Assembly (NCBI GenBank): GCA_015494795.1
Contig: WGAM01000148.1
Span: forward strand, 1 to 53,679
Length of the DNA: 53,679 bases
Direction: 5' to 3'
Origin: Campylobacterota bacterium
GTDB lineage: Bacteria > Campylobacterota > Campylobacteria > Campylobacterales > Sulfurovaceae
A model generated the notes under the pieces. It had not been told where the DNA came from, did no database searches, and saw nothing but the letters and a program-made list of their open reading frames with translations. Each line of letters opens with the position of its first letter. The first letter of the stretch is position 1. The translations under genes were made by a program, and so were the position numbers. Shown here one piece after another: positions 5,866 to 41,407 of the stretch.

Positions 5866-6664
5866 ATTTTAACTTCTGATATATTAAAAATATGGATAGA
5901 CAAAAAGCAGATATTAAAATAATAGATGCACCCGAAGAGATATTATATATATATGATACAATCAAACCTAAAATTGTAAAAATAGATGAGAATATACTAG
6001 AGAGTATCATCATCATATAGAGTGTATTTGATAACTTTTCAGCAATATATATAGGAATTGTAAGTAGTGCAATTACTAGAATAAGTCCTACCACTTTAAT
6101 AGCAACTACTACAGAGAGAGCTGATAGTACTAAAATTAGAGTATAGTAAAATCTAACATTAATTCCCCTAAGTTTAGCATACTCCATATCATAAGATACT
6201 GCTAATATCTCTCTATATCTTAGTGTAACTATTAAGATAGTAGATATTAAGAGTATTATCATATAGTATAAATCACTATGACTTACAGATAATATTGAGC
6301 CAAATAGATAACTCATTAAATCACCCTTATATCCAGATGTTAAATCTATAAATACAACCCCTAAAGCCATACCAACAGCCCACATTAAACCAATAAAGGT
6401 ATCAACTCTATCTCTATGGTTAAGTGTAATAGAGGCGATTATTAGTGCAGAGATAACAGCAAATAGAGAAGCACCTAAAAAGATTGGAAATCCTAAAAAT
6501 ATAGCAAGTCCAATTCCACCATAAGAGGTATGTGCTATTCCTCCTGCTAGAAATACCATTCTATTAACAACAATTAGTGAGCCAATTATTCCTGAAGCAA
6601 TAGAGACTAAAATCCCTGCAATAAGAGCATTTTGAATAAATTCATAAGATAGAGCCTCTATCAT
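5858..6664 (-). CDS. znuB: zinc/manganese-type ABC transporter permease (ZnuB family)
   Basis: An integral membrane protein of 268 residues with about eight hydrophobic helices, of the ABC-3 permease family that imports Zn2+ or Mn2+ with a periplasmic binding protein. The motifs GGIAHTSYGGIGLAIFLG (about residue 41) and VVAIKVVGLILVIALLTIP (about residue 187) are typical of ZnuB/MntB. The start overlaps the stop of the ATPase gene by four bases. No znuA-type binding protein is in the window, so the metal cannot be assigned; ZnuB is the closest label. Confidence 0.85.
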   Translation of the reverse strand: MIEALSYEFIQNALIAGILVSIASGIIGSLIVVNRMVFLAGGIAHTSYGGIGLAIFLGFPIFLGASLFAVISALIIASITLNHRDRVDTFIGLMWAVGMALGVVFIDLTSGYKGDLMSYLFGSILSVSHSDLYYMIILLISTILIVTLRYREILAVSYDMEYAKLRGINVRFYYTLILVLSALSVVVAIKVVGLILVIALLTIPIYIAEKLSNTLYMMMILSSIFSSIFTILGLIVSYIYNISSGASIILISAFCLSIFLIYQKLKFD

Positions 6665-7398
6665 ATACTATCACCTTTTAATATATGAAATAGTTCAACT
6701 TCACAAAAGTGTCCTGCCATATTTAATTTCTCTTTCTCTTTTTTATTTAGTTTATGATATGTTAGTCTCTTGTTTATATGAACTATTTTATTGGCATACT
6801 CTAATACAATAGATATATCATGACTAACTACAATTATTGTAATATCTCTATTTAGATTTTTTAGTAGTTCATATATCTTTTTCTGTCCATCAATATCTAT
6901 ACTAGCAGTTGGTTCATCTAAAATTAAAATCTTAGGATTTGCACATAAAGCTCTTGCTATCATAACTCTCTGTCTCTGCCCACCTGATAGCTCACCTATC
7001 TTCTTTTGAGCAAACTTCTCCATTCCAACCTGTGCTAATGAACCCATAGCACACATAACCTCATCTTTTCCATATCCAAATATAGCTCTTTTAGTTCCAA
7101 TATGTCCCATAAGTACAACCTCAATAACTTTAATGGGAAAATTGGTATTTATATTTGTATTTTGTGGAACATATCCTATTTTAGATAGATTTTTTTTAGG
7201 TATCTCTCCAAAAGTTTTAATAATACCCTTTTGAGTTGGGATTAGTCCTAATATTAATTTAAGAAGTGTCGATTTTCCTCCACCATTAGGTCCAATAATA
7301 GCAAGAAAATCTCTACTCTCTATCTCTAAATTTATATCTTCTAAAATAGTATGCTTATTATAGGCAAAAGATAGATTTTTTATCTCAATTATAGGGAT
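6661..7398 (-). CDS. znuC: metal ABC transporter ATP-binding protein (ZnuC family), no canonical start codon
   Basis: A complete ABC ATPase of about 245 residues that powers the adjacent ZnuB permease. Read on the minus strand it shows IEIKNLSFAYNKHTILEDIN, Walker A GPNGGGKST, Q-loop VGYVPQN-type sequence, signature LSGGQRQRV, Walker B ILILDEPTASID and the H-loop VSHD. The frame is unbroken, yet the first ATG is internal (7110). At the expected beginning there is a strong AAAAGGAGG followed by ATC (7398-7396, seven bases away) and ATA (7392-7390), with no ATG, GTG or TTG back to an upstream stop. Initiation is therefore at a non-standard codon, or a single-base change removed the ATG. I favour ATC by spacing; ATA is also possible. 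Confidence 0.85.
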   Translation of the reverse strand: MPIIEIKNLSFAYNKHTILEDINLEIESRDFLAIIGPNGGGKSTLLKLILGLIPTQKGIIKTFGEIPKKNLSKIGYVPQNTNINTNFPIKVIEVVLMGHIGTKRAIFGYGKDEVMCAMGSLAQVGMEKFAQKKIGELSGGQRQRVMIARALCANPKILILDEPTASIDIDGQKKIYELLKNLNRDITIIVVSHDISIVLEYANKIVHINKRLTYHKLNKKEKEKLNMAGHFCEVELFHILKGDSI

Positions 7399-7400
7399 AA

Positions 7401-9512
7401 CTAATCCTCCTTTTCTATATAGTCTATTCTATTTTTAGATTGTGATGGTACAGCTCCTTTATCTGGTAATCTAATAACGAATGTTGTCTTTTCATTTAAT
7501 ATACTAAATGCTTCTATAGAGCCGTGAACTCTCTCTATCATATTTTTACTCATATATAGCCCTAACCCTGTGCCTTTTGTCTTATGTTTAGTGGTAAAGT
7601 ATGGGTCAAATATATTTTTTAAAATCTTTTTAGGAATACCTCCTGCATTATCTTGAACAGTAATTATAAGTTCATCTTTCTCATGATAGACTCTAATGGT
7701 TATCCTACCATTAGCAATATTATTCTCTTCAAATGCATCTCTGGCATTATTAAGAAGGTTCATAATGGTATGTTTTATATCATTCTCATACCCTTTATAG
7801 TTAATATCACTATCACAATCAAGCTCCACTTTAATATTTAATCTTTTAAATGTATCTCCAATAAGTTTTATGGTTGACTCTATAGTCTTTTTAAGGTTAA
7901 ATGTTTGAGGTATATCAGATTTATCAACAAACCTTCTAAAATCATCAACTGTATTAGATAAAAACTGTATGGAGTTATTTATCTTATCTGTTACCTCTTC
8001 TATATTAATAGTGTCTTGCATACCAAGTTCCGTTTTAATCTTTATATCATTTAGTATCCAAGATACAGAGTTTAAAGGTTGTCTCCACTGATGAGCAATA
8101 TTTTCAAGTATCTCTCCCATAGATGCAAGTCTTGATTGTTGGTTCATAATTGCCGTTTGTCTCTTTACCTCTCGAACAGCATTATCAATTCTAATCTGTA
8201 ACTCATCATTTAGTGTTTTTAACTCTTTTGTTCTCTGCTCAACTCTAATCTCTAAATTTTCAGTTAAACGGTTAAGCTCATTTGCTGTTTTATGCATAAT
8301 TGAATATAAGTTTTTATTTGCTATCTCAAAAGGTGTAATATTTGTCTCTTTATACTCTACTAACTCTATATGACTAGCATTAGATTCACTAAGTACTGCC
8401 ATAATAAATGTATGATTATGGTATGTATTTGGGTGGTTCTCTTCATTAAAATACTCTTGTGCTGTCATATATCCAAATATGTGGTTATTATCTTTAATAT
8501 TTGATATATAGTGTTTAATTGGTATCCTAAATCCATACTCATAAGATATATTAGTTCCAATCCAGAGTGCCTCTGCTGGGGTAGATGATAAGAAATTATA
8601 AATCTCTTGAATTCTATTCATCATTGCATTATAGTTTCCAATAGAGAGTTGAACAATATCATTCCGATTTAACTTTTGAGCTGTTATAATACTCTGCTCT
8701 TCTAAATTTGTATCTAATATATGGACTGTATATGAGATATTCTCTTTTGTAATAAATAGTGGAACTTGTAAAAATACAGACCTATTTTTTTCTATATTTG
8801 GAAAATATTTTCTATATATATCTAGTGCAGGATTATGTGCCATAGTTAATATAGTTGAGTTTTTAGTTTTAGTAATTTTCTTTTTTTTACTTATAGGTTT
8901 CCAATCAAAAGCTTGATATAGCTCAACAGTTAAGTTCTCTCCATGTAGAAATATCAATATAATAGCATCTCTATATATCTTATTTTTATGAAATATAAAT
9001 GATTTATTGCTATTTGGTGATTTACTTGTAGCACCACCACCAAAAATCTTAAGATGACTAAAATCTTTACCCAATGAGTTTATAAATGATGAGGTTTGAC
9101 AATTATTAAAACTAGATAAAATCTCAATTGCCTCTGTATCTGATTGTAAAAATTTCTGTATATGATTTTTATCTATCTTAGACTTATTACAATCTTTTTG
9201 AATATAGTTTTTACTTAAATCTAAAACTAAAGATGATACAGAGCTAGTCTCTAGCTCTATGATAGATATAATAGGTTCTCTATTTAAATCTGAAATTTGA
9301 TGTTTTATAAAACTTGCAAAACTCTGCATACCTACTATTGTAGCATCTGGAAATATCTCATTTAATCTATCTAAAATATCTTCTATATATCTAATATCAT
9401 CACTTGGATAGTTAATTTCAATTATTAATTTTTCTGAATTTTTAATATTATGTTCTTTATACCACTCTTCAAATTTATTAAAATCGCTATAGTAGTGTAC
9501 TAACTGTCTCAT
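7401..9512 (-). CDS. FIST-domain sensor histidine kinase
   Basis: A 703-residue soluble kinase. Residues 1 to about 390 are FIST_N and FIST_C domains, a module thought to bind small ligands such as amino acids. A coiled coil at about 405-455 leads to the phosphoacceptor segment ENIAHQWRQPLNS with His474. The HATPase follows, with N-box MNLLNNARDAFEE, G1 QDNAGGIP and G2 GTGLGLYMSKNMIE. No membrane helices are evident, so it senses in the cytoplasm. The cognate regulator is not adjacent. The stop lies two bases before the proposed znuC ATC codon, so it may be co-transcribed with the metal transporter. A second, split FIST system is at 36135-41407. Confidence 0.88.
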   Translation of the reverse strand: MRQLVHYYSDFNKFEEWYKEHNIKNSEKLIIEINYPSDDIRYIEDILDRLNEIFPDATIVGMQSFASFIKHQISDLNREPIISIIELETSSVSSLVLDLSKNYIQKDCNKSKIDKNHIQKFLQSDTEAIEILSSFNNCQTSSFINSLGKDFSHLKIFGGGATSKSPNSNKSFIFHKNKIYRDAIILIFLHGENLTVELYQAFDWKPISKKKKITKTKNSTILTMAHNPALDIYRKYFPNIEKNRSVFLQVPLFITKENISYTVHILDTNLEEQSIITAQKLNRNDIVQLSIGNYNAMMNRIQEIYNFLSSTPAEALWIGTNISYEYGFRIPIKHYISNIKDNNHIFGYMTAQEYFNEENHPNTYHNHTFIMAVLSESNASHIELVEYKETNITPFEIANKNLYSIMHKTANELNRLTENLEIRVEQRTKELKTLNDELQIRIDNAVREVKRQTAIMNQQSRLASMGEILENIAHQWRQPLNSVSWILNDIKIKTELGMQDTINIEEVTDKINNSIQFLSNTVDDFRRFVDKSDIPQTFNLKKTIESTIKLIGDTFKRLNIKVELDCDSDINYKGYENDIKHTIMNLLNNARDAFEENNIANGRITIRVYHEKDELIITVQDNAGGIPKKILKNIFDPYFTTKHKTKGTGLGLYMSKNMIERVHGSIEAFSILNEKTTFVIRLPDKGAVPSQSKNRIDYIEKED

Positions 9513-9521
9513 ATATATACC

Positions 9522-10196
9522 TTATTTAAATATTTTAGAACCAATACGAACTAAGTTTGAACCACACTTAATAGCTAATTCATAATCTCCACTCATACCC
9601 ATAGAGCATATCTCTGCTCCATCTCTCTTTAACTTATCATATATATTATATGTAGTCTCAAAACTTTTTTGAACTATTTTATTATCACTGCTTAAAGCTC
9701 CAATACTCATTACACCCTTTAGTTTTATATGAGTGTATCTCTCTCTTATCTCCTGATATATATCAATGGCTTCATCTACTCTAACACCAGATTTGGTCTC
9801 TTCATTAGCAGAGTTTATCTGAAGTAGTGCATTCATAGTTACCTCTTTTTTCTCTAATCTACTATTTAATGCCTCTGCTAACTTTAGAGAGCTTAATGAT
9901 TGTAATAGATATGGTCTTAGCTCAATTAACTTATTTATCTTATTTGTCTGAAGAGTACCTAGCATATGCCACTCTATTGGAAGATTACTTAAATTATTAA
10001 CTCTAGTAGCTAACTGTTGAACTTGATTCTCACCAAATGCTCTCTGTCCCAACTCATATAGTAATCTTATACTCTCTTCACTGCTATATTTACCAACTGC
10101 AACAAGTTTTACAATATGATGTTCACTCACCTCAACTCTTGCACTCTCAATATTCCAAATCACTCTATCTAAATTTTCTCTTAATTTTTCTCTCAT
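9522..10196 (-). CDS. yggS: YggS/PLPBP family pyridoxal phosphate homeostasis protein
   Basis: A single-domain alanine-racemase-fold protein that carries PLP and helps balance vitamin B6 pools rather than acting as a classical enzyme. The PLP lysine is Lys36 in LVAVGKYSSE; most homologues read VAVSKT here, so the flanking residues differ slightly. RAFGENQVQQL, EWHMLGTLQTNK and the C-terminal SMGMSGDYELAIKCGSNLVR, which binds the phosphate, are all present. At 224 residues the length is normal. It lies three bases after rseP in the same operon. Confidence 0.93.
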   Translation of the reverse strand: MREKLRENLDRVIWNIESARVEVSEHHIVKLVAVGKYSSEESIRLLYELGQRAFGENQVQQLATRVNNLSNLPIEWHMLGTLQTNKINKLIELRPYLLQSLSSLKLAEALNSRLEKKEVTMNALLQINSANEETKSGVRVDEAIDIYQEIRERYTHIKLKGVMSIGALSSDNKIVQKSFETTYNIYDKLKRDGAEICSMGMSGDYELAIKCGSNLVRIGSKIFK

Positions 10197-10199
10197 AAC

Positions 10200-11279
10200 C
10201 TATCCTAATAGTCTATTTAAGTCGTTATATATTCCAAGTAACATAAGGGAGAGTAAAATCCCCCACCCAACTATTGTTAATCTATACATTATCTTCTCGC
10301 TTGGAGCTTTTCTTGTTATTATCTCATAGAGATTAAACATAATATGTCCACCATCAAGTGCAGGAATTGGAAGTAGATTTAAAACTCCTAAGTTTACAGA
10401 GATTAGTGCTGTAAAAAATATAAGAGCTAAGAGTCCTGATTGACTAGCTTTTGATGTAATATCTACAATAGATATTACTCCACCCATTTGATTAGCAGGA
10501 ACTGAACCTGTAATTAATTTTTCAACACTCTTAAAAATCATTGTTGAAGCATAAATAGTCTCATTATATGCAAAAACAATACCATCTATCGGAGAAAATT
10601 TTAATAGATTATCTCCTATTTTAGGAGCAATACCAATAATTTTTCTCTTAATGCTCTCTCCAAACTTATTTTTCTGCTCTTTTATTAGAGGAGTAATATT
10701 AAATTTTAACTCTCTATTATCTCTTAAGATAGTAAACTCTATATTTCTATTATATTTTTGAATACTCTTACCGATACTATCCCAATTTTTAATCTCTATC
10801 CCATTAATTTTAACTATTCTATCACCCTCTTTTAATCCTGCCTCTTTTGCAGGTGAATCACTAGAGAATGCACCAATTGTAGGTTGTATATAGTGTGCAT
10901 AGTTAAAGAGTGGAGATAGATATGTACCCATCTGTGAAGCTGTAAAATATAATATAAAAGCTACAAAAAAATTGGCAAATGGTCCAGCTAAGAGTATGAG
11001 TATCTTCTGCCAAGGTTTTTTAGTTGTATAACTATCACTATCATAATTTTTATCTAATGGATTACCATCATCTTGTCCTTTCATCTTGACATATCCACCT
11101 AATGGAATAATAGATATACTCCACTCAGTATCTCCAATTTTCTTTGTAAAGAGTCGTTTTCCAAATCCTATACTAAATACATCAACTTTTACACCAAAAA
11201 ATCTAGCCATTAAAAAGTGACCCAACTCATGAAAAAAGATTAAAAATGATAATACTAATAATGCAATAAAAATACTCAT
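10200..11279 (-). CDS. rseP: RseP-type site-2 metalloprotease
   Basis: An intramembrane zinc protease that cleaves transmembrane anti-sigma factors or signal-peptide remnants. The zinc motif HELGH is at residues 17-21 in the first membrane helix, and the third-ligand motif LPIPALDGGH is near residue 311. A single PDZ domain (about 130-195) lies between, with GLKEGDRIVKINGIEI as its ligand loop; E. coli RseP has two. The length of 359 suits the one-PDZ form. Start and stop are separated from neighbours by only a few to about 35 bases. Confidence 0.94.
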   Translation of the reverse strand: MSIFIALLVLSFLIFFHELGHFLMARFFGVKVDVFSIGFGKRLFTKKIGDTEWSISIIPLGGYVKMKGQDDGNPLDKNYDSDSYTTKKPWQKILILLAGPFANFFVAFILYFTASQMGTYLSPLFNYAHYIQPTIGAFSSDSPAKEAGLKEGDRIVKINGIEIKNWDSIGKSIQKYNRNIEFTILRDNRELKFNITPLIKEQKNKFGESIKRKIIGIAPKIGDNLLKFSPIDGIVFAYNETIYASTMIFKSVEKLITGSVPANQMGGVISIVDITSKASQSGLLALIFFTALISVNLGVLNLLPIPALDGGHIMFNLYEIITRKAPSEKIMYRLTIVGWGILLSLMLLGIYNDLNRLLG

Positions 11280-11314
11280 AAAAATCCTAAATTTAATTTA
11301 AGGTATTATACCCT

Positions 11315-12274
11315 TTAGATAATTAAAGTATCTATCTCTATCTTAGGAAACCATAGTTTTATTCTGTTATCGACTCCATCTTTTATAAATTTATAAAATT
11401 TATCTCTATCTAATTGAGATACTATTCCCCTTACAGTTTTACTATTTTCTATATCTATTAAAATATTAAACTCTTTTAAAATATCTTTTTGTAGTAGTTT
11501 AAAATCAATCTGTCCAAATCTATTATGGGTATTTTTATGGTTTTGCATAACTTTAGTGGCTTTACCAATCCCACATATCAATATAACTCTTTTAATCCCA
11601 ATACTATCTACAATCTCTATCGAGTCATATACAAAATTTCCAATCTCTACTATCTGCTCTATACTATATAGCTCTTTAGCCTTAGCAAAAGAGTTATTTC
11701 CAATAGTTAATACAACCTCTCTATACCCATTACTCTTAGCAAAATTTAACTCTGTTATTATACTATCAATATATGCAGAGCTTGAGATAGGTTTTACAAA
11801 TCCTGTTGTACCTAATATAGATATACCACCAACTACTCCAACCTTCTCGTTTGCTGTCTCTTTTGCTAACTCTTCTCCATTAGTTACAGATATAGTTACA
11901 AATATCTCTTTATTATTATTAAAACTACTATATATATTTTTAATCGCATTAAGTGGTGTGGGATTTATTGCAGGATAACCCTTTGGAGGTTTTAGTCCAT
12001 CTTTTGTTACAACTCCAACTCCAACTCCTGCATATATATTAAGAGATTTAAATCTATATGGTTGATGAGGTAGAGGATTTAAATTTAAATCTTCTAATCT
12101 ATTAGATATTGTTACAACAATCTCACAACCTTTAGTTACATCAAGGTCATCATTATCCATCTTATTTGTAATAGATATACTCTTTTCTCTTGTAACTAAA
12201 AATGCCTCCAGAGCTGACTTAAAGGCTATTGATGCGTGAACTCCTGTTGTATATCCTCTTTTTAATCTACTCAA
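11315..12274 (-). CDS. cbiD: cobalt-precorrin-5B C1-methyltransferase CbiD
   Basis: CbiD methylates C1 of the corrin ring in anaerobic (early cobalt insertion) cobalamin synthesis. The family signatures KRGYTTGVHASIAFKSALEA (residues 5-24) and GISILGTTGFVKPISSSAYI are clear, and GIGKATKVMQNHKNTHNRFG corresponds to the conserved NTH motif region. At 319 residues it is slightly short for the family, which often has 350 or more. No other cobalamin gene is in the window; it sits between dnaB and rseP, so the rest of the pathway must be elsewhere. Confidence 0.88.
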   Translation of the reverse strand: MSRLKRGYTTGVHASIAFKSALEAFLVTREKSISITNKMDNDDLDVTKGCEIVVTISNRLEDLNLNPLPHQPYRFKSLNIYAGVGVGVVTKDGLKPPKGYPAINPTPLNAIKNIYSSFNNNKEIFVTISVTNGEELAKETANEKVGVVGGISILGTTGFVKPISSSAYIDSIITELNFAKSNGYREVVLTIGNNSFAKAKELYSIEQIVEIGNFVYDSIEIVDSIGIKRVILICGIGKATKVMQNHKNTHNRFGQIDFKLLQKDILKEFNILIDIENSKTVRGIVSQLDRDKFYKFIKDGVDNRIKLWFPKIEIDTLII

Positions 12275-12303
12275 TACTATTCCTAGAAAAATATTCTATC
12301 ATA

Positions 12304-13725
12304 TTATGTAGATAGTGGCATATCTATATTATTATACTGAACTTCAGTAGGAATATCATCTTTTCTAGGAGCGTCAATAAATCTTGTATAGCTTTTTTGA
12401 AAAATTAGTTTAACTGTCCCTATTGGACCATTTCTATGTTTACCTAAAATAAGTTCAGCCTCCTCCTCCTCTTTTTTCTCAAATGGATTTACATAATCTA
12501 TTGCTCCAGAAGCCTTTGCTTTCATCTCTTTCTCTTTCTCTATAGCCTCACGATATACATCATCTCTATATATAAACATAACTATATCTGCATCTTGTTC
12601 TATACTACCACTCTCACGCAAATCACTAAGTAGGGGTCTCTTATTATCTCGGCTCTCAACACCTCTATTTAGTTGAGAGAGTGCTAAAATTGGCATATCT
12701 AACTCTCTTGCAAGTTGTTTTAAGCCTCTTGAAATCTCTGAAATTACCTGCTGTCTTCCATCTCTGCTATCTCCACTCATTAGTTGAAGATAGTCTATAA
12801 TAGCCATAGATATTTCAGGGTGTTGAGCTTTTAGTTTTCTAAGTTTACTCCTTACATGGTGAATTGTAGCATATCCATCATCATCTACAAAAAGCTTTTT
12901 TTTCTTCATCTCATCTGTAGCATCAGATAATCTACTCCAATCTTCATCATTTAAATTTCCAACTCTTAAGTTTTGAAGTGGTATAGATGTTTCTGTTGAT
13001 AACATTCTAAGCATTAACTGCTCTGCTGGCATCTCTAATGAGAAGAAAGCTACCCCTTCTCCTCTATCTATTGCTTTTTTAGTGATATTTAAAACAAAAG
13101 AGGTTTTTCCCATTGCTGGTCTTGCTGCAATAATAACTAAATCTCCTTTTCCAAAACCACTAGTTTTATCATTTAAATTTTTAAATCCACTATCAACACC
13201 TATAAGTTTACTGTTACCAATAGATTTTAAAAAGCTAATTCTATCTAAAACAGATACTGCTATCTCCTTAGCATCTCTAAAATCTTGACTTACACTATTT
13301 TGAGTAATTTCATAGAGTCTCTTCTCCACAAGGTTCATAATATCATCTGTAGGTAAATCATCTTCTATAGTTACCTTTTTAATAGTTGTTGCTAATGTTG
13401 CTAATGCTCTTTTTGTTGAACGAGATTTGATTTCCTCTATATAGGCATCTGTATTTGATATTGGGTTTGCACTCAATATATCTAACATTGCAACCTCATC
13501 AAACTCTTTTTTACTATTTAATTTAACTCTTAAAAACTCCTCATCTATAGGTTTCTCTTCTCTGTTTAACTCCTCCATAGCCATAAAAATATGTTGATGA
13601 AAAGGGAGATAGAAGTCGTGAGGTTCTAATTTTGATGCTATATCTTCATATATTTCTGGGTCAAATATAATTGCCGATAAGACTGCTCTCTCAATATTGA
13701 GATTATACATATTATCTTCATTCAT
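12304..13725 (-). CDS. dnaB: replicative DNA helicase DnaB
   Basis: The hexameric 5'-3' helicase of the replication fork. The N-terminal domain (1 to about 120) binds primase. The RecA-like core contains Walker A ARPAMGKTS (residues 202-209 region), VAFFSLEMPAEQLMLRM, Walker B AIIDYLQLM and LSQLNRGVESRDNKRPLLSD with the arginine finger. The 473 residues are standard, and no intein interrupts the core. The acidic stretch KKEEEEAELILGKHRNGP precedes the C-terminal strand. It starts three bases after the ispG stop in this orientation. Confidence 0.97.
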   Translation of the reverse strand: MNEDNMYNLNIERAVLSAIIFDPEIYEDIASKLEPHDFYLPFHQHIFMAMEELNREEKPIDEEFLRVKLNSKKEFDEVAMLDILSANPISNTDAYIEEIKSRSTKRALATLATTIKKVTIEDDLPTDDIMNLVEKRLYEITQNSVSQDFRDAKEIAVSVLDRISFLKSIGNSKLIGVDSGFKNLNDKTSGFGKGDLVIIAARPAMGKTSFVLNITKKAIDRGEGVAFFSLEMPAEQLMLRMLSTETSIPLQNLRVGNLNDEDWSRLSDATDEMKKKKLFVDDDGYATIHHVRSKLRKLKAQHPEISMAIIDYLQLMSGDSRDGRQQVISEISRGLKQLARELDMPILALSQLNRGVESRDNKRPLLSDLRESGSIEQDADIVMFIYRDDVYREAIEKEKEMKAKASGAIDYVNPFEKKEEEEAELILGKHRNGPIGTVKLIFQKSYTRFIDAPRKDDIPTEVQYNNIDMPLST

Positions 13726-36121: not shown

Positions 36122-36140
36122 AGCTAGATTTGATCTAGCT
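36122..36140. terminator. bidirectional terminator between converging operons
   Basis: AGCTAGAT-TTG-ATCTAGCT, a perfect 8-bp stem with a 3-base loop. It lies in the 18-base gap between the second glycosyltransferase and the response regulator and overlaps the latter's TAG stop. Confidence 0.6.
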
Positions 36141-37181
36141 TAACCTATCTTTTATATCTCTAAATTTCGTAAAGTTTCTAGTAAATAAGTCAACTAGCTC
36201 AGGATTAAACATCAATCCTCTCTCTCTCTTAATAATATCTAATGCCTCCATAACACTAACTACATTAGTAGTATATAATCTATGAGTTGTTAATTTATCG
36301 AAGAAATCGACTAGAGATGCAATTTGAGCATGGATTGGTATCTCTGTTCCCTCCATTCTATATGGATAGCCCGTTCCGTCCCAATTTTCATGATGATATA
36401 AAATTACCTTTTTTGCCATACCTATAAGAGTTGTCTCTTTAATATCTTCTAATATCTCTAACCCTAACTCTGGATGTTTTCTAAATATTTTACTATCCTC
36501 TTTATCTAACTGCTCTTGAGGTATTCGTAGAAGTCCTATATCATAGATAGACATTGTATAGTATAAATTATCTGCCTCTGTACTATTTAATCCATATAGA
36601 TGACCTAAAAGTTTTGCGTACTCTCCTAATCTTTTAGATGTATTTTTATTATAAAATCCATTCTTATGTACCATATTTCCAAGTATATTTAAGAGTTGTT
36701 TTTGAGAGTTATCTATAATATCTATTGCATCTTTTAGATAATTTAAATTATCTTTAGAGGAAGAGTTTATATTACCTACTAAATCATTAAATCTTTTAAT
36801 TCTTAATTGATTAAATACTCTAAGTTTTAACTCCTCTGGATTATATGGTTTTGAGATAAAATCATCTGCACCTAACTTATATGTTGTTGTCTTTTCATGT
36901 GATTTAGATGTGACTACAATAACTGGAATTGAAGAGTATTCACTACTCTCTTTAAGCATCTTTAGTAACTCCAAACCACTAACTTTAGGCATCATTAAAT
37001 CTAACATAATAATATCTACCTGTTTGCTCTTTATAATCTCTAATCCCTCTTCTCCATCTGAAGCTTGATAGATATTAATATTTGGCATATCTTCAAATAT
37101 AGCAGTGGCTAACTCTTGATTAAACGCATCATCTTCTACGCTAAGTAGCGTAAACTCTCCTAAATCTTCTAACTTTTTCAT
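36135..37181 (-). CDS. response regulator with partly eroded HD-GYP output domain
   Basis: The receiver domain (1 to about 125) has acidic pocket VEDDAF, phosphoacceptor Asp61 in MLDLMMPKVSG, and VVTSKS. The C-terminal half (about 170-345) is an HD-GYP fold: IYDIGLLRIPQEQLDKED, FRKHPELGLEILEDI, ILYHHENWDGTGYPYRMEGT and SLVDFFDKLTTHR. In active c-di-GMP phosphodiesterases the first motif is HDIGK; here it is YDIGL, so a metal-binding His and the Lys are lost, whereas HH and GYP are kept. It directly abuts the hybrid kinase gene and should receive its phosphate. Likely a c-di-GMP-binding or weak enzyme. Confidence 0.88.
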   Translation of the reverse strand: MKKLEDLGEFTLLSVEDDAFNQELATAIFEDMPNINIYQASDGEEGLEIIKSKQVDIIMLDLMMPKVSGLELLKMLKESSEYSSIPVIVVTSKSHEKTTTYKLGADDFISKPYNPEELKLRVFNQLRIKRFNDLVGNINSSSKDNLNYLKDAIDIIDNSQKQLLNILGNMVHKNGFYNKNTSKRLGEYAKLLGHLYGLNSTEADNLYYTMSIYDIGLLRIPQEQLDKEDSKIFRKHPELGLEILEDIKETTLIGMAKKVILYHHENWDGTGYPYRMEGTEIPIHAQIASLVDFFDKLTTHRLYTTNVVSVMEALDIIKRERGLMFNPELVDLFTRNFTKFRDIKDRLS

Positions 37182-39194
37182 CTATTTATGCTCCTCTTTA
37201 AGTAGAGGTGTTAACTTTTCTAAAAATTTACTGCTTATCTCATCTATTTTTAGAAAATCTCCCTCTTCTGATATTTTTTGTAACTCTCCTGCCGTTGAAG
37301 CAAGTTTTTTTAATCCAAGATTTGATAAAACTCCCTTTATTGCATGGTAGTTCTCTACAAGCTCTTTACTATTTTTATTTGCAAAATTGAGTCTTACTCT
37401 CTTAACATACTCAACAATACTCTCTCTAGCCTTATCATATAGTCTTTTAGCTACTGTCTCATTAAAGTTATTTTGTAAATGATTAAGTGCCATTGCTTCA
37501 ATATCTTCATTTAGTTTCTCATCTTTTCCTTTTATCTCAATTGGAGAAATATCTCTATTTTCTTTAGAGATTTCTTTTTTAAATTCATTATTTATTAGTT
37601 TTAAAAGTTTTGCTTCAATATCCTGTTTATCAAGGGGTTTTTCTATAAAATCATTCATACCAGAGTTTTCTGCTGCTAATTTATCCTCTTTATATACATT
37701 AGCACTCATACAGATAATAGGTACATCTCTATTAAACTCTCTAATTCTTCTAGTTGCCTCTAATCCGTCCATAACAGGCATACGCATATCCATAAGTATC
37801 GCATCATAGTGGTTATTTTTAGCTTTTTGAACTGCTATCTCACCATTTTCAGCTGTATCACAAGTGATACCAAAGAAGTTATCTAACATCTCTTTCTCAT
37901 ATTCTCTATTAATCTCAACATCTTCAACTATTAAAATATCAAGATTTGAGTAGTCAACTTTAATATTTTTACCAAAAAGTTCACTATCATAGGTCTCTTC
38001 AACCTCTTTAATAAATCTTTGATATGATATTGGTTTACTAATGACTTTATCAAACTCTTTTAAATTTATATCATTTTCTCTACTATCTACTAATGCAATA
38101 AGTTTAATATTTGGATTAACTGCTCTAAAAGTTCCAGCTATATAGTCTGTGCTATGTTTAAAAGAGTCAATATCAAAAATACCAACATCATAAAATCTTC
38201 CACTAGCTACCATGTGTATTAGTGCTGATGTTGTATCTTCTATCTTAATATCATGATTTTGAAAATTAACACCTAAATTTGCAAACTCTCTAGTTAGGCT
38301 ATCTATAAATGATGTTTTTTTAGAAAACATCATAACACTACTACTATTAAGTGCTTTTCCTATCTCTTTTTTCCTTGTTTTTTCAATAATAAGTGTAACT
38401 GTAAAACTACTACCTATACCTTTTCTTGATTCAACAGTAATCTCTCCACCCATCATCTGAGCTAATTTTTGAGAGATATATAGTCCTAGACCTGTTCCTT
38501 GTGTTTTGTCTGTTGATTGAAATGGCTCAAATAGAGTTTTAGCTACACTCTCTGGAATACCACTACCTGTATCATCTACTTTGGCCACTAATTTTAATCT
38601 ATTATTATCTATATCCTCTAATGATTGAATATAAAATCTAATAGAACCCTGTTTTGTAAATTTTGTAGCATTTGATAGTAGATTAATAAAAATCTGTTTA
38701 ACTCTCTTATCATCAACTTTTACCTTATATTCTGGCATAGGAATATCTGTAATTAACTCAACATCTTTTTTTAATCTTGAACGAATAAGATTAGCACAAT
38801 CATTTAAAATATCATCAAGGTCAACCTCTTTTGGTACTAAATCTATGCGATTATCTCCAATTTTTGCCACATCTAATAGGTCACTAACTAAGGCTAAGAG
38901 ATGGTTTGAACTCTGCTCTATACTATTTAAATATCTCTTCTGTTTATTGTTTAATGCAGTATCTTCTAATAGTTCTCCATAACCTAAAATTGCTGTAAGT
39001 GGAGTTCTTAACTCATGACTAACTGAAGCTATAAATCTTTTTTCATTACTAAGAGACTCCTCTAACTCTCTATTTATCTGTGTTAAAAGATGGGCTAATT
39101 TTAGTTTATCTTTTGTTGCTTTTATATATCGTTTTTCTAATTGATTATATTCAATCTTTAAATCTTCCATATTTTTAATATTTTGAATTGACAT
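37182..39194 (-). CDS. soluble hybrid histidine kinase with pseudo-receiver, receiver and Hpt domains
   Basis: A 670-residue kinase without membrane helices or a recognised sensor domain. A coiled coil (10-55) leads to His[19 protein letters not shown] with His60. The HATPase has VDDTGSGIP and [19 protein letters not shown] receiver-like domain (about 285-410) with FDIDSF looks degenerate. A full receiver follows, with [15 protein letters not shown] and Asp469 in [11 protein letters not shown]. The C-terminal Hpt has [11 protein letters not shown] with His617. This is a complete phosphorelay in one chain. The input is probably the FIST protein encoded two bases upstream. Confidence 0.92.
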
Positions 39195-39196
39195 AT

Positions 39197-40342
39197 CTAT
39201 TTTTCCTTTTCACTTAAGAGTGCTGTAACAAATGTTTCATTATGGAAAGCATATCCACCCGGAAATGCACCTATCTCTCCATAAGCATAAAAGCCGATTA
39301 AAGGAACTTCTCTTGAACTTTTATATGCTAGTTCAATCTCTTTAAATGCAAGGTTGCCTAATACCTGTTTTCTTGAACAACATGGAAATAGCAGTCCCAC
39401 CTCTGGTTTAAAATTAGACTCCTCCTTCAAAGCCTTATCTATACTCTCTCCGACATATTTTATAATTCCCTCACCCTGTGGTGCTGATATTCTAATCTTT
39501 GATTTCTCTTCAACATGTCCTGCAAATATTAGTGCTTTCTTCTCTTCATCAATCCCTAAAACGGCTCTATAGACCACCATTCCACTCTTCATTGTAACCT
39601 CTAAAGGATACTCTATTCCAATAGCTGGTATATCTTCATTATCTGTTATACTTAAATAGTCTCTATAAAAATCAATTGCTGGATTGCCATCAACCTCATA
39701 TACTATATTCTGCTCTGCTTTTGTTACAATTCTATCTTTCCCTATTCCAACCCACCCAAAAGCTCTTGAGCCTACAATATTTATCTTATCTCTATCTAAT
39801 ACTAAAGTAACAACTCCATGATTAGAAAAATTATCTTTAGAGAAGACAAATGTCTCTTGTAGTCTCATATCATCTCCAGCACTTCCACCAAAAATATACT
39901 CAATTCCTTGATTTGTAAGTCCCTGCGTGTAGGCATCATTATCAAAATCTAATCCTGATGTAATTGTAATAATAGCTGGATTTTTAAATTTATATTTTGC
40001 CCATACTCCAATATTTTTACCAGTTTGAAAATATGAAGTCTCATTTTCAAGTGAGGAGAATTTAAAAGCTATTGCTTTTGGATTTATATCTAAAAGCATT
40101 GCTACAATTGTTCCATCTACCTCATTTACTCCCAAATCTTTATTTGCAAATATCTCTCCTGCTGTTGTTGAACCCATTACTATAAATTCATACTTCTCCA
40201 AACCTACAACCATCTTTTTAATATTATGTTCAATAGATGAGTAGATAAATGCAACAGATGGATTAAACCCATCTTTAATAGCTATCTCTATCTTTTTTAA
40301 TAGACTATCTATTGAATAGGCATTTATAATCATATTTTTCAT
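39197..40342 (-). CDS. stand-alone FIST domain protein
   Basis: A 381-residue soluble protein consisting of FIST_N (about 25-220) and FIST_C (about 225-370). Typical features are [56 protein letters not shown] and the C-terminal [24 protein letters not shown] is a predicted ligand-sensing domain, proposed to bind amino acids. It has no output domain of its own, so it probably reports to the hybrid kinase next to it. Two-base and three-base gaps place it inside the four-gene operon. Confidence 0.9.
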
Positions 40343-40345
40343 TAT

Positions 40346-41407
40346 TTAATTCTCCTTTATATATTTACTTCTGAGTTCTACAAAATAGTCAAAATAGTCC
40401 AAAAATGATGCTAGAAGTTTAGGGTTAAATCTTTTACCACTCTGTTTTTTAAAAAAATTATATATATTATCTCTTGAATTATTCTGTTTAAATAAAAGAT
40501 TAAAAATTTCTACAAGGTGAACAATTTGAGCATAGTCAGATATTGCATCTCCTTTTAACTCTTGTGGCATACCTGTTCCATTATAGTATTCCTTATGTTG
40601 AACTATAACTGCTTTTAAAATTTTAATAAATGGAGTCTCTATAGAGTTTTTAATAATCTGATAACCTTGATATATATACATCATATCATTTGTATCGTTA
40701 GATACACTCTCATAAGAGTTTTTAAACCTTTTTGAAGAGAGTGACCCTATATTATATACAACACTACTAATATATATACTCTCAATATCTCTTTTACTAT
40801 AATTTAAAAGTTCAGCAAAAGCTTTTACTAATTTAGCTGTAATCTTTACACTCTCATCTCTTAGTGCTATAATAGAGGCAATTCCTCGAAACATCTCTTT
40901 TTGAGACTGCTCAATAGTCTCTATATCAAAAAGTATATTCTCTTTTTGAACTATTTTTGTATCTTTTTTAATCTCTTGAACATCTTTTTCTTTTTTTTTG
41001 TTAAATCTATTTTTATAATATACCTTTTCAAGATATTTATATATCTTCTTTTGTAAATCATCAAGTCTAAATGGTTTAGATACAAAATCATTAGCACCAA
41101 GTTTATAAAACTCTTTCATAACTAACTCATCAGTAGAGATAATAATAACTGGAATATCTATATAAAGAGGATTTTTTTTAATCTCTTTAATTGTATTTAG
41201 CCCATTAAGTCTTGGCATATATAAATCTAATAAAATAATATCTATCTTCTCTTTTTCTAAAATCTCTAATGCTTCAATACCATCTTCTGCCTCAATATAA
41301 CCAATGGAGGGTACTCTTGATAGAAGAGATATAATAAGTTGACGGTTAAACGCATCATCATCTACAATTAAAACAGTTATTGAACCAAGTTTGTCCCATT
41401 CCATCAT
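40346..41407 (-). CDS. response regulator with strongly degenerate HD-GYP-like domain
   Basis: The receiver domain has IVDDDAF, Asp61 in LLDLYMPRLNG and IIISTDE, so it should be phosphorylatable. The C-terminal domain aligns in layout to the other regulator of this operon, but the catalytic residues are gone: HDIGK is YNIGS, HHERWDGTGYP is QHKEYYNGTGMP, and the later Asp region reads HLVEIFNLL. Hydrolysis of c-di-GMP is not expected. A basic linker (NRFNKKKEKDVQEIKKDTK) joins the domains. It is the first gene of the operon, behind a 240-base AT-rich region. Confidence 0.85.
   Translation of the reverse strand: MMEWDKLGSITVLIVDDDAFNRQLIISLLSRVPSIGYIEAEDGIEALEILEKEKIDIILLDLYMPRLNGLNTIKEIKKNPLYIDIPVIIISTDELVMKEFYKLGANDFVSKPFRLDDLQKKIYKYLEKVYYKNRFNKKKEKDVQEIKKDTKIVQKENILFDIETIEQSQKEMFRGIASIIALRDESVKITAKLVKAFAELLNYSKRDIESIYISSVVYNIGSLSSKRFKNSYESVSNDTNDMMYIYQGYQIIKNSIETPFIKILKAVIVQHKEYYNGTGMPQELKGDAISDYAQIVHLVEIFNLLFKQNNSRDNIYNFFKKQSGKRFNPKLLASFLDYFDYFVELRSKYIKEN

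Follow-up and report, generated by a model that had tools for sequence, protein, structure and literature searches.

The DNA analyzed here, a stretch of 53,679 nucleotides from contig WGAM01000148.1 of a Sulfurovaceae bacterium (hereafter the window, to whose proteins all residue numbers refer), carries a four-gene signaling operon on its minus strand. The genes are transcribed in the order RR1, FIST, HK and RR2, and are separated by gaps of 3, 2 and 0 bases, just as an earlier note on this DNA had described a block held together by gaps of 0 to 3 bases. Our analysis indicates that the operon probably represents a NosRPK-like, Sulfurovaceae-specific phosphorelay with a detached FIST sensor and non-catalytic HD-GYP outputs. 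Its genome (G000) comprises 1.92 Mb in 154 contigs. The operon contains the following features:

40346..41407, minus strand: RR1, a response regulator of 353 amino acids (aa) with a receiver and a strongly eroded HD-GYP domain (open reading frame and Pfam)
41042..41374, minus strand: receiver domain of RR1, with phospho-acceptor D61 and D17/D18/K111 intact (Pfam)
40475..40849, minus strand: pseudo-HD-GYP domain of RR1, with YNIG, QHKE and GTGMP (Pfam and ligand alignment)
39197..40342, minus strand: FIST, a stand-alone protein (open reading frame and Pfam)
39686-40252, minus strand: FIST_N
39269-39679, minus strand: FIST_C
39515-39517, minus strand: codon of His276 in FIST
37182..39194, minus strand: HK, a soluble hybrid histidine kinase of 670 aa without sensor domain, DHp-CA-(putative) pseudoREC-REC-Hpt
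39048..39188, minus strand: single N-terminal helix of HK, residues 3-49, a putative site of FIST contact or signal entry (AlphaFold2 secondary structure)
37986..38345, minus strand: putative cryptic receiver-fold domain of HK, residues 284-403, without the acidic pair (AlphaFold2 model, Foldseek)
37605..37937, minus strand: receiver domain of HK, with D469, E424/D425 and K519 invariant (Pfam and alignment)
37275..37436, minus strand: Hpt domain of HK, with H617 invariant (Pfam and alignment)
36135..37181, minus strand: RR2, a response regulator of 348 aa with a receiver and a pseudo-HD-GYP domain (open reading frame and Pfam)
36198..36677, minus strand: pseudo-HD-GYP domain of RR2, with YDIG, HHEN and GTGYP

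Pfam matches above the gathering scores assigned Response_reg and HD_5 to both regulators, FIST and FIST_C to the FIST protein, and HisKA, HATPase_c, Response_reg and Hpt to HK. The degenerate motifs picked out in the earlier note were all recovered, with YNIG, QHKE and GTGMP beginning at residues 218, 270 and 277 of RR1, and YDIG, HHEN and GTGYP at residues 213, 263 and 269 of RR2. The operon thus combines, side by side on one strand, the elements of a NosRPK-like architecture: a receiver linked to a degenerate HD-GYP domain, a stand-alone FIST protein and a sensorless kinase.

Searching for relatives yielded 36 loci, named as Sulfurovum, Sulfurovaceae and Campylobacterota metagenome-assembled genomes, of which 29 had their upstream side visible, 31 their downstream side and 24 both. 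The full four-gene order was kept in 18 of these 24, and since the genes beyond the block mostly differed from locus to locus, the clustering is not a product of chance. A receiver protein stood directly 5' of FIST in 28 of 29 loci (exception, L126); 22 of these proteins were longer than a bare receiver, including those of L107 and the contig-end-cut L104 and L119, while six were bare (L127, L130, L131, L133, L134 and L137). On the other side, an RR2-type gene followed HK in 23 of 31 loci and was missing from eight, namely the reduced-type loci L130-L134 and L137 as well as L129 and L135. In L114, HK and RR2 were separated by one more gene of the receiver-HD-GYP type. When the operon FIST profile was run against 150 sampled genomes of the class (E ≤ 1e-60), the only match was the window's own genome; in a sample of 100 genomes of the family, 24 held a relative of at least 44% identity, 19 of the full and five of the reduced type. 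In the genomes sampled, the operon, a feature of Sulfurovum-type marine bacteria, was found only in Sulfurovaceae. Its neighbors in the window are a divergent MurU-like nucleotidyltransferase gene and a convergent glycosyltransferase gene. Three variations were observed besides. The L114 operon is extended (5889-13637) and comprises three receiver-HD-GYP genes, FIST, HK, hemerythrin and ODP; tandem RR1-type genes precede FIST at L056 (3349-5740), in another genus of the family; and RR1-like receiver-HD-GYP genes with IRDIG and QRKE occur at L092 (196-1296, genome G044) and L093 (854-1951, genome G080), two genomes for which the family search returned no close operon-type FIST.

To judge the outputs, we compared them at eight positions, which we take to be the metal ligands of the Persephonella HD-GYP protein PmGH (4mcw) and which agree with the alignment. 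All eight ligands were present in each of eight intact HD-GYP proteins from other genomes of the genus. RR1 of the window keeps one of them and RR2 five, so key residues have indeed been lost to different degrees, as the note had proposed, and neither protein has the complete set characteristic of an HD-GYP phosphodiesterase. Among 25 aligned RR2 rows, including the extra RR2-like copy of L114, the histidine of the HD pair was tyrosine in 24 (the lone non-Tyr being the L114 extra copy, with HN) and the aspartate was retained in 24. The second histidine of the HH pair was present in 14 rows, HQ being frequent, D305 was Asp in 16 rows and Asn in seven, and the tyrosine of GYP was retained in 22. 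RR2 of the window has also lost the upstream Glu and His ligands and is only the mildest case in a graded series of erosion. The segments IYDIGLLR and WDGxGYP were nearly invariant. In RR1, none of the metal ligands was conserved across 27 rows (counting the window, two L056 copies, the upstream regulator of L114 and the gutted L107), and the E..[DN]G.G.P loop was kept in 26. The fold itself persists, as indicated by the HD_5 matches in both regulators and by the AlphaFold2 model of the RR1 output domain, whose best structural matches are still the HD-GYP structures 4mcw and 4r8z. Both outputs are therefore HD-GYP domains by fold and are predicted to be non-catalytic.

Two other explanations of these domains have to be considered. 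They might be decaying leftovers without function, which would fit the missing or gutted RR1 domain at three places on the tree. This is improbable, however, as the ratios of nonsynonymous to synonymous substitution rates (dN/dS), taken with the window sequence as reference, amounted to 0.12 against L105 and 0.19 against L106 for the RR1 domain, and to 0.08, 0.11 and 0.10 against L105, L106 and L104, respectively, for that of RR2. This range of 0.08-0.19 resembles that of the receiver domains, and the near-invariant RR2 segments speak against decay as well. Both degenerate HD-GYP domains are maintained under purifying selection. Alternatively, RR2 could be a working phosphodiesterase with a Tyr-for-His variant metal site, with metal held by the Asp, three His and Asp that are left, and RR1 could be its regulator, forming an HnoD/HnoB-like pair inside one operon. 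While the five retained ligand positions and the GYP motif of the window's RR2 would be compatible with such a site, we regard it as very improbable, given the almost universal tyrosine, the lost upstream ligands, the HQ/HR or D305N changes in many other RR2s and the full ligand sets of all eight catalytic-type proteins of the genus. The proposal of one enzyme-like and one dead output did not hold up for the same reason: metal-ligand loss across the RR2 family argues against an enzyme-like RR2. The window's genome further encodes five GGDEF domains (three with a GGDEF/GGEEF motif seen) and four EAL domains, and RR1 and RR2 contain the only HD_5 domains found in it; unless one was missed, they therefore cannot act by inhibiting an active HD-GYP enzyme.

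Some relatives have given up the output of RR1. In L107, RR1 is 223 aa long and has lost the HD-GYP core by internal deletion, and the output is absent altogether from RR1 of L127 and of the receiver-only clade. The bare receivers require at least two separate changes on the FIST tree, the loss in L107 coming in addition; the RR1 HD-GYP domain is thus expendable, having disappeared on at least two occasions from a regulator whose receiver stayed in place. The L127 kinase matches at 670 aa (the RR2 side lies off the contig), so only the RR1 output is gone there. Reduced-type kinases, four of which were aligned, lack the middle domain and keep REC and Hpt. By these alignments, the bare-receiver clade has lost, or never had, both HD-GYP outputs and the putative pseudo-receiver. 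Downstream of reduced REC-FIST-HK loci we also noted a Na+:alanine symporter-like gene (L130, 9782-10306, PF01235 match), with members of the same cluster in L131, L134 and L137.

HK was modeled with AlphaFold2 from 28 sequences, and with a mean predicted local distance difference test score (pLDDT) of 75.9 and a predicted template modeling score (pTM) of 0.50, the domain arrangement in the model is unreliable. In sequence order, the model comprises the helix at residues 3-49, DHp, CA, a receiver-like segment (284-403), the true receiver and Hpt. Only the single helix, which has no Pfam match, precedes DHp, confirming that the kinase lacks a sensor domain. What the note had missed is that HK is a full phosphorelay kinase with receiver and Hpt: the DHp histidine, the CA boxes, the REC aspartate and the Hpt histidine are all in place, and H60, N175, D208, E424/D425, D469, K519 and H617 were invariant in 28 kinases. 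Likewise, D17, D18, D61 and K111 were invariant in 26 RR1 and RR2 receiver rows. No acidic pair is present in the middle segment, which keeps an Asp and Lys-Pro and shows receiver-like strand/helix alternation in the model, in the place of a pseudo-receiver between CA and REC. Foldseek returned ShkA (6qrj) as the best match of the HK model. The best PDB sequence match of the middle domain was a response regulator, a weak hit at E = 0.1; a Pfam scan of this domain gave no clear match, and the VIA-align output for HK, consisting almost entirely of the true receiver (residues 414-540), is uninformative here. With such weak sequence support, residues 284-403 may form a cryptic pseudo-receiver. Pseudo-receivers are described as common in GacS/BarA-type kinases, and the modeled DHp-CA-pseudoREC-REC layout would resemble that of ShkA and the GacS/BarA hybrid kinases (PMC7010744); unlike ShkA, HK contains an Hpt domain, and any counterpart in HK of the c-di-GMP (cyclic di-GMP) site of ShkA (Y338 region) and of its DDR linker is only putative.

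FIST and kinase domains also occur together elsewhere in these genomes. A 703-aa protein of the window (7401-9512, minus strand) joins, in a single chain, FIST (PF08495, with a partial FIST_C match) and a HATPase_c kinase domain with weak HisKA; this speaks for FIST being an input module of kinases. FIST frames of about 700 aa are present in many genomes of the genus. A second stand-alone FIST of the window's own genome (L059, 6317-10356, contig C33) adjoins a 968-aa BarA-like hybrid kinase without twin regulators.

The top NCBIfam names were NosP for FIST and NosR for RR1 and RR2, all far below cut-off. FIST scored 60.8 bits against NosP (NF041558, cut-off 450) and the second FIST on C33 68.1 bits; RR1 and RR2 reached 99.1 and 148 bits against NosR (NF053512, cut-off 400). 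Membership in the NosP and NosR classes was rejected on these grounds; the operon probably works like NosRPK, and by curated models it is a variant, not a member. A candidate ligand residue sets its FIST apart. Position 276 was His in 14 of 14 operon FIST rows; in a second comparison, it was His in all seven full-type and all four reduced-type proteins, and Asp in nine of nine other FISTs. Eight further FISTs, two of them unreadable at this position, gave three Asp (genes already in the set of nine) and three Asn. His276 is thus specific to the subfamily, and so is Cys322.

A further gene, for a diiron protein of the O2-sensing ODP family, accompanies the operon in many relatives and hints at gas sensing. 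ODP lies directly 3' of RR2 in L110, L111, L116, L117, L118, L128 and G057, with tandem copies in L116 and L117, and one gene further in L114, where a hemerythrin gene intervenes. All four loci scanned (L110, L114, L116 and L118) scored 185-194 bits against PF19583 (gathering cut-off 27.2), and the remaining linked loci were assigned by membership of the same cluster. At several loci, overlaps of a few bases suggest that the genes are coupled. Across the genus sample, ODP was present in 11 of the 20 genomes with the operon and in none of the 11 without it (p = 0.002). This count includes G111, whose match is a contig-end fragment of 66 residues, and rests on an HD_5-based split, by which G075 (RR1 without HD-GYP) and the genomes with the receiver-only variant count as lacking the operon. 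Adding a 31-residue contig-end fragment in G105 gave 12 of 20 (p = 0.0014), and moving G075 to the operon class gave 11 of 21 versus 0 of 10 (p = 0.005). The relatedness of the genomes and the physical linkage of the genes weaken these p-values. In the family sample, with five receiver-only-variant genomes outside the operon class, ODP occurred in 7 of 19 operon genomes and 0 of 81 others. Hits at 20-32% identity elsewhere were set aside as different proteins; in both samples, close ODP relatives turned up only where the operon was present. The window's own genome holds an unlinked ODP (L144, 4944-5756, contig C110), 65-66% identical to an operon-linked one and followed by CcoG-like and copper-ATPase-like genes (cbb3-assembly-like, named by eye); these neighbors differ in the nearest relative and were not used.

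Together, these findings suggest the following mechanism. The small molecule sensed by soluble FIST would most likely be a gaseous or redox ligand such as nitric oxide (NO) or O2, perceived via a metal or heme center, and FIST would dock on the N-terminal helix/DHp region of HK to set its autokinase/phosphatase balance. Phosphate would then pass from H60 to D469, to H617 of Hpt and on to the receivers of both regulators. Neither regulator is expected to hydrolyze c-di-GMP. RR2 may act through a conserved non-catalytic HD-GYP surface with the kept GYP loop and fixed YDIG, binding a partner or c-di-GMP and thereby tuning the cell's GGDEF/EAL enzymes. RR1 may work mainly through its receiver, as a phosphate sink or competitor, its output domain being in the process of loss. 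The diiron protein ODP could be a fifth component in many relatives, where it would either add another sensor or help to handle the gas.

What FIST senses allows for other answers. The operon could be a plain NosP system, a Sulfurovaceae nosRPK with duplicated NosR whose FIST binds heme and senses NO. The shared R-P-K order and degenerate HD-GYP NosR (PMC12570481), the top NCBIfam names and a NirS-type NO producer encoded in the window's genome make this possible, but the low family scores and the subfamily-specific His276 and Cys322 leave it doubtful. NirS was also tried as a marker of an NO role and rejected: in the genus sample it occurred in 12 of 20 operon genomes versus 3 of 11 others (p = 0.135, not significant). 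That the FIST subfamily senses a non-gas signal, for example an amino acid, with ODP linked for another reason, is unlikely; the symporter-like gene downstream of receiver-only-variant loci (PF01235 in L130) would suit it, but HD-type loci have ODP and, in L114, hemerythrin downstream, both non-heme diiron families. Several points also weigh against the NosRPK-like gas or redox relay that we favor. Besides the NirS result, scores so far below the NosP and NosR cut-offs mean that function cannot be transferred by name, and a heme/NO ligand of FIST is something we only infer. A PDB sequence search returned no FIST relative at E ≤ 1, leaving no template for a docking model, and nine of the 20 operon genomes lack ODP, whose co-occurrence rests on related, partly incomplete genomes plus physical linkage. 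A bolder version of the favored relay, to which we give rather little weight, would be a two-sensor gas relay of detached parts, in which a His276 FIST (with a new metal or heme ligand) and ODP feed one sensorless HK; its pseudo-receiver may read c-di-GMP back, and the kinase would drive twin binding-only pseudo-HD-GYP regulators, some lineages having collapsed to FIST, kinase and bare receiver.

In kind, the arrangement is already known: a detached FIST sensor serves a sensorless kinase, and the regulator carries a degenerate HD-GYP domain. According to PMC12570481, the Burkholderia FIST protein NosP binds heme/NO and controls autophosphorylation of the sensorless NosK (NahK), which phosphorylates the degenerate HD-GYP protein NosR, described in B. 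pseudomallei as HG-GTP. The gene order nosRPK, the stand-alone FIST, the receiver with degenerate HD-GYP and a kinase without sensor or membrane segment all recur here (PMC12570481), so the earlier note's idea of FIST as a detached kinase sensor is likely right in kind. Unlike nosRPK, the present operon has a second HD-GYP regulator after a hybrid kinase with an extra, putative receiver-fold domain, REC and Hpt, falls far short of the NCBIfam cut-offs, and has His276 in FIST and an ODP partner in relatives. In Shewanella, too, one kinase, HnoK, serves several regulators, among them HnoD, a non-catalytic HD-GYP protein that binds and thereby regulates a partner enzyme (PMC6335343); there, however, the sensor is H-NOX and the partner HnoB is an active EAL enzyme, whereas here both outputs are pseudo-HD-GYP domains. 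With NosR and HnoD as precedents, the idea is less new than the note implied. ODP of Treponema denticola is reported to sense O2 and to be coupled to a receptor that lacks a sensing module of its own (PMC7666581); the coupling of a diiron ODP gene to a sensorless transducer is similar, but that transducer is a chemotaxis receptor (MCP), and here the partner is a hybrid kinase operon equipped with FIST. Searches for Campylobacterota FIST/HD-GYP literature listed nothing on the operon; PMC9239204 counts HD-GYP proteins in Campylobacterota, and the word FIST is absent from its main text.

For specialists, the interest lies in a genome in which two fixed pseudo-HD-GYPs were the sole HD-GYP-type domains found, in an RR1 output that has been lost repeatedly from regulators retaining the receiver, in the His276 subfamily of FIST and in the ODP link. 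The natural series from two pseudo-HD-GYP outputs to a bare receiver offers a test bed for the role of catalytically dead HD-GYP domains, and the ODP link together with the FIST-specific histidine makes the FIST signal testable in environmental sulfur-oxidizing bacteria.

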